A stretch of DNA of 35,646 bases from Euryarchaeota archaeon RBG_19FT_COMBO_69_17 (GTDB lineage Archaea > Thermoplasmatota > Thermoplasmata > RBG-16-68-12): the NCBI GenBank assembly GCA_001800825.1, contig MGWD01000066.1, forward strand, positions 844-36,489, read 5' to 3'. Position 1 is the stretch's first letter, and each line of letters begins with the position of its first letter. The position numbers were made by a program, and so were the translations under genes. Below are positions 3,348 to 10,258 of the stretch, piece after piece. A model generated the notes under the pieces. It saw nothing but the letters and a program-made list of their open reading frames with translations, did no database searches and was not told where the DNA came from.

Positions 3348-3761
3348 ATGGGCGGACGCGGGAAGGGGGTGGACGCCTACCTCGCGAGGGCGTCGGGCCC
3401 TTTCCGGGAGGCGTTCGACGGAGTCGAGGCCGTCGTCCGCGGGATCTTCCCCGAGGCGGCCTCCGTCCTGGCGTACGGCATGCCCGGGTGGTCCGTCCGC
3501 GTGCGGGACGCGCCACCCCCGGGGTACAAGGGGACCCTGGACCCGACCCACCTGATGATCCTCCTCGCGGACCGGAAGACGGGCATCACCCTCCACGTCT
3601 GGAACCCCCTCGAGGAGGCGTTCCTTGAGTCCCATCGGCCCGCGATGGAGCGCGGCGGGTTGAAGGTCATGCGGGGCTGCCTCGCGTTCCGCCGGAAAGG
3701 ACCGTACCCCGTCGGGGCGGTCGAGGCCCTCCTCCGCGCGGCCGCGGAGGGCGTCAGGTGA
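3348..3761 (+). CDS. DUF1801-family protein
   Basis: YLARASGPFREAFDGVEAVVRGIFPEAASVLAYGMPGWSV ... HLMILLADRKTGITLHVWNP. Confidence 0.75.
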   Translation: MGGRGKGVDAYLARASGPFREAFDGVEAVVRGIFPEAASVLAYGMPGWSVRVRDAPPPGYKGTLDPTHLMILLADRKTGITLHVWNPLEEAFLESHRPAMERGGLKVMRGCLAFRRKGPYPVGAVEALLRAAAEGVR

Positions 3762-4439: not shown

Positions 4440-5174
4440 ATGCGGATCGGCGGGTCCACGTACTCGAAAGAGCCCTTCCCGAAGCAGCTCCAGGAGCTGC
4501 GAGAGGCGGGCTTCGACTACGCGGAGTTCGACCTCGCGCACGTCCGGATGGCGCCGGACAAGCTCCTCGTCGAGGCGACGGCCCTCGCGCGGACGATCCC
4601 CCTCGAGACGGCCCACCTCCCGCCGCCCCGGTTCACGCACGACGACCTCGCCCGGTTCGTCGGCTTCCTGGACGCCCTCGCCCCCGTGGGCACGCGGCTC
4701 TTCAACGTCCATCTCCTCGAGGCGAAGGCGTCCCCCAAGATCGCGGACGACGTGAAGGCGGCGTGGCTCGGGGACCTCGTGAGGGCCGCGCGGGAACGGA
4801 GCGTGTCCGTGACCCTCGAGAACGTCGACGAGCCGCCCGACGTCCTGCGGAAGGCCCTCGACGCGGTCCCGGACCTGGGGTTCTGCCTCGACGTCGGGCA
4901 CGCGCACCTCGACAAGCGGGACGACGGCGGCCGGGCGTACCTCGAGGCCCTCAAGGACCGCCTCGCCCTCGTCCACGTCCACGACAACCACGGCGGGCAC
5001 GGGAAGGAGGGGGACGAGCACCTCCCGCTCGGGAAGGGGACGATCGACGTGGAGCGGGACGTGCGGGCCGTCCGCGCGGCCGGGTACGACGGGCGCTTGA
5101 CGCTCGAGATCTTCGCGGGCACGCCGGAGGACAAGAAGGGCGCCCTCCGGAAGCTGCGCCACTGGGTCCAGTGA
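4440..5174 (+). CDS. Sugar phosphate isomerase/epimerase (AP-endonuclease-2-like TIM barrel)
   Basis: LENVDEPPDVLRKALDAVPDLGFCLDVGHAHL ... LVHVHDNHGGHGKEGDEHLPLGKGTIDVERDVRAVRAAGYDGRLTLEIF. Confidence 0.9.
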   Translation: MRIGGSTYSKEPFPKQLQELREAGFDYAEFDLAHVRMAPDKLLVEATALARTIPLETAHLPPPRFTHDDLARFVGFLDALAPVGTRLFNVHLLEAKASPKIADDVKAAWLGDLVRAARERSVSVTLENVDEPPDVLRKALDAVPDLGFCLDVGHAHLDKRDDGGRAYLEALKDRLALVHVHDNHGGHGKEGDEHLPLGKGTIDVERDVRAVRAAGYDGRLTLEIFAGTPEDKKGALRKLRHWVQ

Positions 5175-5175
5175 C

Positions 5176-5754
5176 ATGGAGCCCTTCGAGCCCGTCCGGA
5201 AGGTCGCCTCCGTCCTCGAGTCCTTCCGGCGTCCGTGGTGGGTCGCGGGGGGCTGGGCGATCGACCTCCTCGTCGAGCGGGAGACGCGGGCCCACGAGGA
5301 CGTCGAGGTCGCGATCCTCCGGGGGGACCAAGGGACCCTGCGGGACCACCTGCGCGGCTGGCGGCTCGAACGGGTGGCCCGCGGGAGCCCGACGCGGATC
5401 CCTTGGGCCGACGGGGAATGGATCGGCCCTCCGGACCACGAGGTCCACGCGCGCTCCCCGGACGGGACCTTCGAGCTCGAGATCCTCCTCAACGAAGGGG
5501 AGGGCCCGACGTGGCGGTTCCGGCGGGACCCGCGGATCACGAGGCCCCTCGCCCTCGCCGGGATGAGGACCGCGGACGGCGTGCCGTTCCTCGCCCCCGA
5601 GATCGTCCTCCTGTACAAGGCGAAGGAGCCGCGGGAGCGGGATCTCCACGACTTCCGCGTGGCCCGCGGGGCCCTCGACGAGGACCGTCGGGCATGGCTG
5701 CGGGACGCCCTCGCGGCCGTCCACCCGGGCCATCCGTGGATCCGCGAGCTCTGA
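5176..5754 (+). CDS. Nucleotidyltransferase-fold protein, aminoglycoside adenylyltransferase-like
   Basis: PWWVAGGWAIDLLVERETRAHEDVEVAILRGDQ: G-G-W-A-I-D ... H-x-D-x-E/D pattern. Confidence 0.75.
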   Translation: MEPFEPVRKVASVLESFRRPWWVAGGWAIDLLVERETRAHEDVEVAILRGDQGTLRDHLRGWRLERVARGSPTRIPWADGEWIGPPDHEVHARSPDGTFELEILLNEGEGPTWRFRRDPRITRPLALAGMRTADGVPFLAPEIVLLYKAKEPRERDLHDFRVARGALDEDRRAWLRDALAAVHPGHPWIREL

Positions 5755-6786: not shown

Positions 6787-7302
6787 ATGATCCGGGACGC
6801 GGGGGATGCCGACCGGGCGGCCCTCGAGCGCGTCGCGCGGGCCTCCTTCGACGGGATCTACGCGTTCTTCGCCCTCCGCGGGATCCGCCGCGCGGACCCC
6901 CTCCTCGTCGCCGAGGACGGCGGCGCGGTCGTCGGATTCCTCGAGGGACTCGTCTTCGACGGTGCGCCTCGGATCGGGTATGTGTACTTCGTCGCGGTGG
7001 ACCCCGGCCATCGGGGGCACGGCCACGCCCGGGCCCTCGTCGGGGAGGCCCTCCGCTGCTTCGAGGCCCGGCAGGCGACCCGCGCTTTCGCCGCGGTCCC
7101 CGACGACAACGACGCGTCTCGCCGCCTCTTCGAGTCCCTCGGTTTCGAGGAGGTCCCGCGGTCCGCCCTCCGGCAGTGGTACGGCTGGCGGGGGATCGGG
7201 GTCCAGATGCGGATGGTCCTCGCCCCCCACGAGGTCCTCCTGGCGCGTACTTTCGCGGACCCCTCCCCGGCGCCCGCTCAAGAGGCCCCCCGTCCCTCGT
7301 AG
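6787..7302 (+). CDS. GNAT-family N-acetyltransferase
   Basis: MIRDAGDADRAALERVARASF ... VYFVAVDPGHRGHGHARALVGEALR ... FAAVPDDNDASRRLFESLGFEEV. Confidence 0.9.
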   Translation: MIRDAGDADRAALERVARASFDGIYAFFALRGIRRADPLLVAEDGGAVVGFLEGLVFDGAPRIGYVYFVAVDPGHRGHGHARALVGEALRCFEARQATRAFAAVPDDNDASRRLFESLGFEEVPRSALRQWYGWRGIGVQMRMVLAPHEVLLARTFADPSPAPAQEAPRPS

Positions 7303-7310
7303 GACGGGGG
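7287..7310 (+). other. 9-bp-stem RNA hairpin at the GNAT stop / PolB upstream junction
   Basis: CCCCCGTCC (7287-7295) - CTCGTA - GGACGGGGG (7302-7310), perfect complement. Confidence 0.6.
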
Positions 7311-7366
7311 AGACCGCCACGCACGGCTGGATCATCGACGCGTACGGGGACCTCGACCGCGATGCC

Positions 7367-10258
7367 ATGGTCCTCTGGCTCTGGAACGAGCAGGGGGCCC
7401 ACCGGATCGAGGACCCGCGGTTCCTCCCGACGTTCTTCCTCCACGTGCCCCCCGCTGAGCTCCCGGCCCTCCGGCGGCGGATCGAGATCCTCGACGGGGT
7501 GCGGGAGGTCCGCGAGGTCGAGCGCCGGATCGCCTTGGAGGACGAGGAGCCGCGGCCCGTCCTCGAGATCGTCCCGCGGCACTACCGCGACCTGCCGAAG
7601 GTCGCCCGGATCCTCGACTCGAACGGGGGGTACGTCGACCACAAGCTGTTCAACGTCGACCTGAGGCCGAGCCAGCGGTACATGATGGAACACGGGATCT
7701 TCCCCATGGGGCTCGTCCGGCACGCGAACGGCCGCTGGACCCCGGAGGAGGAGCACTTCGCCTTGGACTACCCGCTCCCCCCGCTGCGGCGGTCCCTCCT
7801 GGACCTCCACGTCGACAACCCGATGGGCATCCCGCGGATGCAGGACCGTCTCCTCGGGGCCCGCGTGGACGACGACGAGGTCGACGGGGACGAGGAATCC
7901 ATCCTCCGGGGGATCGAGGCGCTCGTGCGGTCGAAGGATCCCGATGTCCTCCTGACGGACGGCGGGGACGCGTTCACGATGCCCTACCTCGCGCGGAAGG
8001 TCGCGGACCTCGGGATGGACCTGCAGCTCGGGCGGGACCGGGACCGATTCGCGGAGCGGAAGGGGAAGTCCTACTTCACGTACGGGAAGATCGTCTACAA
8101 GCCCGGGCAATACCTCCTGCGCGGGCGCCTGCATCTGGACCGCGGGCACTTCGCGTACCGGGAGAGCGCCCTCGCGGGGCTCGCGGAGCTCTCGCGACTC
8201 TCCACGCTCACGCCTCAGGAGCAGGCCCGCCTCACGCCGGGCACGGCTTTCACCGCGATGCAGGTGAACCTCGCCCACAAGGACGGAACCCTCGTCCTCT
8301 GGAAGAAGAACCGACCGGAGGGATTCAAGAGCGCGGAGGATCTCCTCCGGGGCGATCGTGGCGGTTTCATTTTCGAGCCGGAAGTCGGTTTGCACGAAGG
8401 ACTCTACGAACTCGATTTCTTTGCCCTCTACCCTAGCATTATGGTCGGCTGCAATATCTCGGCTGAGACCCTCGACTGTCCATGTTGCACACTCGATGGA
8501 CGCGCCGTTCCGGAGTTGAGATATCACTTTTGCAGGCGACGTCTCGGGTTGATCCCTAGGGTTCTCAAGCCCGTGCTTGAACGCAGGCGATACTACAAGA
8601 AAATGAAGAGAGAACCGGGGCCTTTACAAGAAATCTACGTGGGGCGGGACACCATCTTGAAGTGGCTGTTGGTGACGTGTCTCGATGGGTCTACAGTCGT
8701 CCCTTTCAAGATTAACGGCGAGTACCGTATCTCTAGAATCGATCAAGTAATTGATCGCTACCTCAGGACCGAGGGTACACTGGAGCCGGATGATAGCATC
8801 TTTGTGTTGGGACCTGGGAAGGACTTTGAACTCACGGAAAAGCGCGTGAGAAAAGTCATCAAGGCAAAGGCGCCCGATAGCGAGTTGCTCATCCGGACTC
8901 GCGGGGGAAGGGAGATCCTTGCGACGCCGAACCATCAATTCTTTGTGCTGGCAAACGATGGCAACTTGCTGGAAAGAAGATCTGACGAACTGAAAGTAGG
9001 CGATTTCCTTCCGGAATACGCCTCGCTCCCTCTGGAGAGCAAAGCGCCTAGCACATTCGACATCTTGAGGCCCTTTCATGCTTCGCTCACAAGCGAAGAG
9101 CGACCGGGGGAGCTCCCTCCGGCTGCAAAGAATCTTTTGCGACTCGTGTCCGCAGACCTTTCATTTAGGCGTGTCGAGAAAATCGTTTCCGTTCCTCGCC
9201 GATCAGAGTACGTTTATTGTTTCGAAACCGAGGATAAACCGCACGGTTTCGTGATCGCCGGCGGCATAGTCGTTGGGAATAGTTTTGGGTACACCGGCTA
9301 CAAAAATGCCCGTTTCGGCCGCATCGAGTGCCACGAGGCGATCAACGCGTACGCGCGGGACATCCTCGTGCGCACGATGGAGATCTCCGAATCCCACGGA
9401 TACGAGGTCGTCCATGGCATCGTGGACTCCGTCTGGCTCCGGCCCAAGCCCGACGCGGATCCCATCGAGAAGGTCCGGGAGCACATCGCAGGCTCCATCG
9501 GCCTCCCCATCGAGCTCGAGGGGCGGTACAAGTGGATCGTCTTCCTGCCCTGCAAGACGACGGGCGTGGGCGCCCTGAACCGCTACTACGGGCTCTTCGA
9601 GGACGGCGAATTCAAGCTCCGCGGGATCGAGCTGCGGAAGCACGACACCCCGGAGTTCATCAACATCGCCCAGGAGGCGATGCTCGGGGAGCTGAGCTAT
9701 GCGTCGACCGCGGAGGAGTTCCGGGAGCGGATCCCCCGCGCGGTGAACGTCCTCCGGTGGACCGCGAAGCGCGTCCTCGACCGCGCGATCCCGGTCCACC
9801 AGTTCATCCTCACGCGGAACGTGACGAAGGCCCTTCCCGAGTACGTCGTCCTCACGGCGACCGCGGCGGCCCTCAAGCAGATGGAGAAGCGCGGGTTCTC
9901 CGTGGAGCCCGGGGAGACGGTCCGGTACGTCCTCCTCGACGCCCGCGCGCGCGATTCCGAGCGGAAGGTGCGGGTCGCGGAGTTCCTCCAGGGGGACGAG
10001 GAGCCCGACGCGTGGGAGTACATCCGCCTCCTCTGCCGCTCCGGGCAGACCCTCCTCGCGCCCTTCGGGTACACGGAGGACCGGCTGTACGGGATGTGCA
10101 AGGACCTCGGGGACGTCCGCCCGCCCACGGGGGACGATGGGGTCCGGATCCAGGAGGACTACAAGTCCCGGGGCCACAGCCGCGCCCGCGGCGGGGTCGG
10201 GTACAAGCGGCCGTGGAAGATCGAGGACCCGCCCGAGGCGGATCCCGACGTAGCGTGA
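7367..10258 (+). CDS. Family-B DNA polymerase (divergent, PolB2-like) interrupted by an in-frame mini-intein; start uncertain, coding probably begins upstream of 7367
   Basis: Motif A ELDFFALYPSIM; motif B KWLLVT/SFGYTGYKNARFG (split by intein); motif C VVHGIVDSVWL; ELSRLSTLTPQEQARLTPGTAFTAMQ. Confidence 0.88.
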   Translation: MVLWLWNEQGAHRIEDPRFLPTFFLHVPPAELPALRRRIEILDGVREVREVERRIALEDEEPRPVLEIVPRHYRDLPKVARILDSNGGYVDHKLFNVDLRPSQRYMMEHGIFPMGLVRHANGRWTPEEEHFALDYPLPPLRRSLLDLHVDNPMGIPRMQDRLLGARVDDDEVDGDEESILRGIEALVRSKDPDVLLTDGGDAFTMPYLARKVADLGMDLQLGRDRDRFAERKGKSYFTYGKIVYKPGQYLLRGRLHLDRGHFAYRESALAGLAELSRLSTLTPQEQARLTPGTAFTAMQVNLAHKDGTLVLWKKNRPEGFKSAEDLLRGDRGGFIFEPEVGLHEGLYELDFFALYPSIMVGCNISAETLDCPCCTLDGRAVPELRYHFCRRRLGLIPRVLKPVLERRRYYKKMKREPGPLQEIYVGRDTILKWLLVTCLDGSTVVPFKINGEYRISRIDQVIDRYLRTEGTLEPDDSIFVLGPGKDFELTEKRVRKVIKAKAPDSELLIRTRGGREILATPNHQFFVLANDGNLLERRSDELKVGDFLPEYASLPLESKAPSTFDILRPFHASLTSEERPGELPPAAKNLLRLVSADLSFRRVEKIVSVPRRSEYVYCFETEDKPHGFVIAGGIVVGNSFGYTGYKNARFGRIECHEAINAYARDILVRTMEISESHGYEVVHGIVDSVWLRPKPDADPIEKVREHIAGSIGLPIELEGRYKWIVFLPCKTTGVGALNRYYGLFEDGEFKLRGIELRKHDTPEFINIAQEAMLGELSYASTAEEFRERIPRAVNVLRWTAKRVLDRAIPVHQFILTRNVTKALPEYVVLTATAAALKQMEKRGFSVEPGETVRYVLLDARARDSERKVRVAEFLQGDEEPDAWEYIRLLCRSGQTLLAPFGYTEDRLYGMCKDLGDVRPPTGDDGVRIQEDYKSRGHSRARGGVGYKRPWKIEDPPEADPDVA
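8678..9280 (+). other. Mini-intein (201 aa) in PolB motif B
   Basis: Block A CLDGSTVVPFKI, block B GREILATPNHQFFVL, C-terminal HGFVIAGGIVVGN followed by Ser+1; no LAGLIDADG motif seen. Confidence 0.9.

Follow-up and report, generated by a model that had tools for sequence, protein, structure and literature searches.

An A/T-ending codon footprint around the intein insertion point of an archaeal polB gene and at other intein sites of its lineage

The polB gene and its mini-intein

The present analysis concerns a stretch of 35,646 nt from Euryarchaeota archaeon RBG_19FT_COMBO_69_17 (contig MGWD01000066.1), referred to below as the window, and an intein-interrupted family B DNA polymerase gene (polB) found in it. 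Based on Pfam and NCBIfam matches and on alignment to relatives, the gene, located on the forward strand at 7367–10258, encodes an accessory PolB paralogue. The intein occupies the pol-b site (8678–9280, forward strand; codons 438–638 of the polB frame) and lies within a tract with a low G + C content at third codon positions (GC3). On the upstream side, this tract takes in extein codons 316–437, from motif A to motif B (8312–8677, same strand), and on the downstream side, extein codons 438–451 (9281–9322, same strand; SFGYTGYKNARFGR), both parts being delimited by a change-point fit. The upstream part is also seen in intein-free congeners, and the downstream part, as judged by counts of A/T-ending codons, is the strongest segment of the scar in those congeners. 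Closest to the insertion point, codons −10 to −1 (8648–8677, forward strand) and +1 to +6 (9281–9298, forward strand) belong to one footprint that is common to all of the tested intein sites.

The intein of the window is 201 aa long, has a GC3 of 0.59, and consists of the splicing domain only (PF14890, 62.9 bits; TIGR01445, 39.2 bits); no profile match to a LAGLIDADG or other endonuclease domain was found within it. It begins with Cys1 of CLDGST and ends, as is characteristic of class 1 inteins at the pol-b site, with an Asn followed by Ser (VVGN|SFG), while Gly stands in place of the penultimate His (VVGN|S; 9275–9283). Natural inteins that lack the penultimate His exist, and the element was therefore retained as a predicted class 1 intein at the pol-b site despite this replacement. 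With other archaeal pol-b inteins it shares the insertion in motif B (LLxx|S-F/Y-G), the splicing domain, and the occurrence of mini and endonuclease-bearing forms at one site; it differs from them in lacking this His, and the searches returned no relative with an identity well above 40% across its length. The true start of polB is probably a little upstream of 7367, since a conserved HGWIIDAY sits in frame before this position; no clear ATG, GTG or TTG start was identified at 7300–7366.

The GC3-poor tract with and without the intein

In 30-codon windows, the GC3 of polB falls from 0.90–1.00 to 0.47–0.75, and then recovers. A maximum-likelihood two-state fit to the third positions of the frame 7367–10258 placed the tract at 8312–9313, with a GC3 of 0.611 inside and 0.959 outside (support ranges of the edges, 8282–8354 and 9307–9325); the gain in log-likelihood was 95, compared to at most 12 in 200 permutations. 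The extein taken alone has a GC3 of 0.65 (codons 316–372), 0.66 (373–437) and 0.64 (438–451), versus 0.93–0.99 elsewhere. No comparable internal tract was found in the other gap-free genes of a background sample from the same genome (~212 ORFs, ~290 kb, ORFs with N runs set aside), and the remaining strong GC3 breaks reported for this sample are 5′ over-calls or gene ends. The tract is real and far beyond chance. The original prediction had described a gene that uses almost only C/G-ending codons outside a tract running from about 8350 to 9320. Its account of the composition was borne out (GC3 of 0.96 outside versus 0.61 inside, with a clear break on both sides in the sliding profile), its edges were correct to within ~40 nt, and the asymmetry that it pointed to, ~365 nt upstream versus ~40 nt downstream of the intein, was recovered as well.

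The genus comprises 19 genomes of GC-rich Thermoplasmatota from soil and groundwater, that of the window included. Six of them carry an intein at the pol-b site (G000, which is the window, G001, G003, G006, G007 and G018), six have an empty site (G004, G008, G010, G013, G014 and G015), and in the rest this PolB is absent or fragmentary. LAGLIDADG domains are present in the polB inteins of G006 and G018, the other polB inteins of the genus being mini-inteins.

With the expected number of A/T-ending codons derived for each amino acid from the same gene, extein codons 316–450 of the six intein-free alleles contain 227 such codons versus 86.5 expected (z = 16.4), and those of the intein-bearing congeners 178 versus 67.5 (z = 14.6). 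In the intein-free alleles, the excess peaks directly past the insertion point (codons 438–450; 46 observed, 9.7 expected). The fraction of A/T-ending codons within the tract is nearly equal in all congeners (~0.3), and what makes the window stand out is mainly a GC3 outside the tract that exceeds those of all the others. No dip was detected in PolB1, the paralogue from these genomes, when aligned across motifs A and B (261 observed, 312 expected), in intein-free orthologs from Methanomassiliicoccales and other distant groups (535 versus 613), or in intein-bearing orthologs from other clades (139 versus 148). An artefact of amino acid composition is ruled out by the amino-acid-controlled expectations, and a general property of the motif A–motif B region or of P-loops by PolB1 and the ABC transporters (see below).

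Synonymous sites of the tract are near saturation between species. At four-fold sites, the identity of the window to its congeners is 0.24–0.48 within the tract, where 0.28–0.31 is expected for independent sequences, and mostly 0.5–0.7 outside. In clade A (G006, G008, G013, G015 and G018), amino acid identity within the tract reaches 0.96–0.99, while third-position identity is 0.65–0.73, below that of the N-terminal part of the gene (0.78–0.86) and mostly below that of its C-terminal part (0.69–0.84). Proteins that are nearly identical while their synonymous sites turn over indicate that the dip of this clade was not brought by a distant donor and that the changes arose in place. Polarised changes within clade A show no excess of A/T-to-G/C substitutions, which weighs against amelioration of an old import, parsimony being biased in sequences this skewed.

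Several further features of this polB and its insertion point were observed. One extra base is present just past the insertion point (TTT C GGN TAY) in the intein-bearing G007 (L033, ~5738–5748) and in the intein-free G010 (L036, ~3671–3680) and G014 (L037, ~5075–5085). In all three genomes the downstream frame is intact and no start codon is found nearby. Judging from the sequence, UUU-CGG-N is a candidate programmed +1 frameshift site, at which F-G-Y would be restored if tRNA-Phe slipped from UUU to UUC. The intein of G007 (L033, 5246–5737), which adjoins the frameshift, scores only 16.1 bits on the splicing-domain profile and may be degenerate. The accessory PolB is apparently absent or unassembled in G005, G009, G011, G016 and G017, and PolB1 is present in most of these genomes. 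Relatives of this archaeal PolB with 35–38% identity (L100–L104) were found in metagenome-assembled genomes labelled as Deltaproteobacteria, Thermodesulfobacteriota, Ignavibacteriae and a bacterium.

Codon usage at other intein insertion sites

The intein-rich family of the window's lineage (f1) was compared with two sister families that have almost no inteins (f2 and f3). Intein matches occur in families f1, f4, f5 and f6, while none were found in f3 or in four of the five f2 genomes. Eighteen other inteins from five genomes contain 2130 A/T-ending codons versus 983 expected; two GyrA inteins, in which the C-terminal junction string could not be located, were left out. The exteins beside these 18 inteins show an excess as well (58 versus 29 and 53 versus 26 in the 12 codons on each side), which fades by 30 codons.

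Intein-free f1 alleles of AtpA, RtcB and RadA contain, taken together, 129 A/T-ending codons versus 62 expected over the 12 codons that precede the insertion point and 88 versus 55 over those that follow it, whereas no excess was found in the same flanks of the f2 and f3 alleles. Fine binning confined the excess in these three genes to codons −10 to +6, and the interval thus set was applied out of sample to EF2, GyrB and four sites of ribonucleotide reductase (RNR). There, f1 showed 183 A/T-ending codons versus 78.8 expected upstream and 123 versus 47.5 downstream of the insertion points, compared to 150 versus 140.6 and 99 versus 78.1 in f2/f3. At all 11 insertion sites, distributed over eight genes (PolB, AtpA, AtpB, RtcB, RadA, EF2, GyrB and RNR), intein-free f1 alleles have 1.5–4.5 times the expected number of A/T-ending codons, which gives a total of 542 observed versus 235.7 expected; the total for f2/f3 is 481 versus 426.5 (p = 0.035). 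At 10 of the 11 sites in f1, the site window ranks in the top 0.6–4% of its gene (combined p = 7 × 10−10, Fisher's method on ranks).

From ~30 nt upstream to ~20 nt downstream of the insertion points, A/T-ending codons reach 2.3 times the expected number and synonymous turnover is high, while elsewhere in these GC-rich Thermoplasmatota nearly all synonymous sites are held at G or C. This ~50-bp footprint is a feature of the window's lineage, and it is present whether or not an allele now carries an intein: at matched sites, the excess is 2.70×/2.29× in intein-bearing and 2.18×/2.41× in intein-free alleles. In PolB, EF2 and GyrB, third-position identity among empty alleles reaches, or comes close to, its lowest value in the whole gene at the insertion site. 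The P-loops of ABC transporters from six f1 genomes, a kind of P-loop that never hosts inteins, show a deficit of A/T-ending codons (19 observed, 35.9 expected), so the footprint is not a P-loop effect; an earlier P-loop control had covered one site only.

Among the RNR genes, that of G014 (L206) has an intein at VKQGG|..VHN|KRRGAN that apparently precedes Lys rather than Cys, Ser or Thr; either its splicing would be atypical, or the junction would be misplaced.

Origin and meaning of the footprint

Based on the comparisons above, the polB tract can be read as a local, unusually visible case of the lineage-wide footprint at intein insertion points, and recurrent attack by homing endonucleases is, somewhat on balance, its likely cause. 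Homing endonucleases recognize targets of 14–40 bp (PMC3024317), also cut the sites of related species, and leave behind escape mutations or scars from end joining; escapers have been seen experimentally in Haloferax (PMC10643990). The proposed cause is favoured because these enzymes act on stretches of this kind, reach across species borders, and leave such traces. The endonucleases of inteins would repeatedly attack the insertion sites while alleles cycle from empty to invaded to cured, and each round would introduce or favour synonymous changes of the target through repair, short co-conversion, or escape from cleavage. In polB, the wider dip between motifs A and B would be superimposed on the ~50-bp footprint. 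On the same slight balance, the intein of the window would be an old endonuclease-less mini-intein residing within a scar, and not a fresh arrival that brought its flank. We infer the endonuclease as the cause, and the precise mechanism, from the sequence comparisons.

The footprint resembles target escape as known from other systems in that point mutations fall within a recognition-sized target: the deviations are confined to codons −10 to +6, to which polB adds its wider dip. It differs in that only synonymous positions deviate here, and do so at all of the tested sites in the lineage. Empty alleles do not deviate more than invaded ones; once the junctions are exact, both states are equal, a result at odds with escape that operates in empty alleles only, and this variant was rejected. 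The lack of shared flank sequence among intein-free alleles, in turn, argues against simple co-conversion.

Several points weigh against recurrent endonuclease attack. Scars of equal strength in both allele states are compatible with mutagenesis or co-conversion as well as with escape, and a weak excess is also seen in f2/f3 at four of the 11 sites. The 11-site total includes some intein-bearing alleles at RNR codon 291, while the test on EF2, GyrB and RNR uses the strict set. Pooled z-values overstate independence, the alleles being related; rank tests are safer, and the Fisher rank test is the safer figure since it does not depend on related alleles counting as independent. Finally, the wide upstream section of the polB dip (codons 316–420), though common to the genus, lies outside the 50-bp footprint and is only partly explained. 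In intein-free alleles it peaks at codons 341–360 (motif A) and 371–400, and f2/f3 have part of the second peak as well. A further insertion site in motif A that is empty today could underlie this section of the dip, as could relaxed linkers.

As a tentative extension of recurrent attack, which we regard as possible and still doubtful, the footprint might record a synonymous arms race, in which hosts and homing endonucleases contend for the silent positions of protein motifs that are themselves invariant. Alleles without an intein would drift or be selected away from the default GC-ending spelling, the endonucleases would follow, and the scars would keep a record of the contest, including at sites that are now empty.

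Repeated co-conversion and loss, with many gains that each brought short A/T-richer flanks, would make the intein-free alleles former intein alleles that have kept these flanks. This agrees with the equality of the scars in both states, with the patchy distribution of inteins within the genus, with the match of the short flanks to short conversion tracts, and with the lack of scars at the sites of intein-poor families. We consider it unlikely: many exact intein losses are required, the intein-free alleles have no flank haplotypes in common, synonymous identity is lowest at the site itself in several genes, and the near-identity of the clade A tract proteins leaves no place for distant donors, there being no trend of amelioration either.

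Quite unlikely is the explanation put forward in the original prediction, namely recent lateral acquisition by homing, with the intein of the window coming from a donor of lower GC3 and bringing along extein sequence from both sides (~365 nt upstream, ~40 nt downstream). Homing has been reported to co-convert an extein residue and to produce large conversions in the flanks (PMC10643990), and, as in those cases, the altered extein at polB lies beside the insertion point, is asymmetric, and is linked to homing. The known tracts travel with their element, whereas here the footprint is equally strong without it, spans ~50 bp at the majority of sites, and is marked by strong divergence at synonymous positions instead of donor sequence held in common. 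The sharp GC3 edges are in keeping with a recent import, as is the fact that in amino acid sequence the tract of the window is nearer to that of G010 (identity 0.88) than to that of G007 (0.82), its neighbour in the N-terminal part (0.88), with third-position identity to G007 dropping from 0.68 to 0.35 in the tract. However, six intein-free congeners, which the original prediction had proposed for comparison, carry the same dip at the same extein codons. No close intein or tract that could represent the donor was found among the congeners or in 390 genomes from the phylum: the intein of the window is ~26–42% identical to those of its congeners, and its best match in the 390 genomes, outside the polB relatives, is 34% identical. 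Separate trees of the extein segments, which are short, weakly supported and different in detail, do not disagree significantly: the approximately unbiased test leaves the grouping of the window with G007 unrejected in the tract (p = 0.205) and in the C-terminal part (p = 0.111), and that of G001 with clade A in the N-terminal part (p = 0.282). A shift in base composition between intein and extein has been discussed as a sign of recent acquisition (PMC549080), and the two do differ in composition in such cases as in this lineage; here, however, inteins generally differ from their hosts in being rich in A/T-ending codons, which makes composition uninformative on the time of arrival, and alleles without an intein show the shift in the adjacent extein too. 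What stands of the co-conversion claim is the break at the intein and the centring of the strongest part of the dip, in relatives, on the pol-b site; the comparisons give no support for a tract that is recent, private to the window, or imported. In the lineage of the window itself, an older import may have taken place. The intein indeed has no endonuclease, as predicted, and may have lost it or never had it, while the same-site inteins of two congeners have LAGLIDADG domains.

A nucleotide or translational constraint that favours A/T-ending codons at conserved motifs, where inteins merely happen to sit, is improbable. The insertion sites do coincide with conserved active-site motifs, and the weak excess at four sites in f2/f3 would fit, but synonymous identity at the site is low rather than high, the ABC-transporter P-loops and motif B of PolB1 from the same genomes show a deficit, and the sites stand out within their own genes at 10 of the 11 positions. 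An assembly chimera or strain mixture can practically be dismissed: the metagenome-assembled genome of the window has 6.4% contamination, but the tract is enclosed in a single open reading frame whose flanks are intact, and the same dip in independent assemblies of congeners refutes it.

The open literature yielded no paper that describes synonymous footprints at intein sites, subscription papers lying outside the scope of the search. According to a published homing model, escape from the endonuclease of an intein comes at a price for the host, that of altering a conserved motif (PMC3229294). The synonymous footprint at 11 sites in eight genes, empty alleles included, suggests that the contest between host and endonuclease may run at silent sites. 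The findings also caution against taking a break in composition at an intein as a sign of recent arrival: in this lineage, inteins and their target sites are both generally off-composition. The footprint offers a reading of past intein activity from genomes that now have no intein, and, if the arms race is true, intein sites would be locatable from codon usage alone in intein-less genomes.
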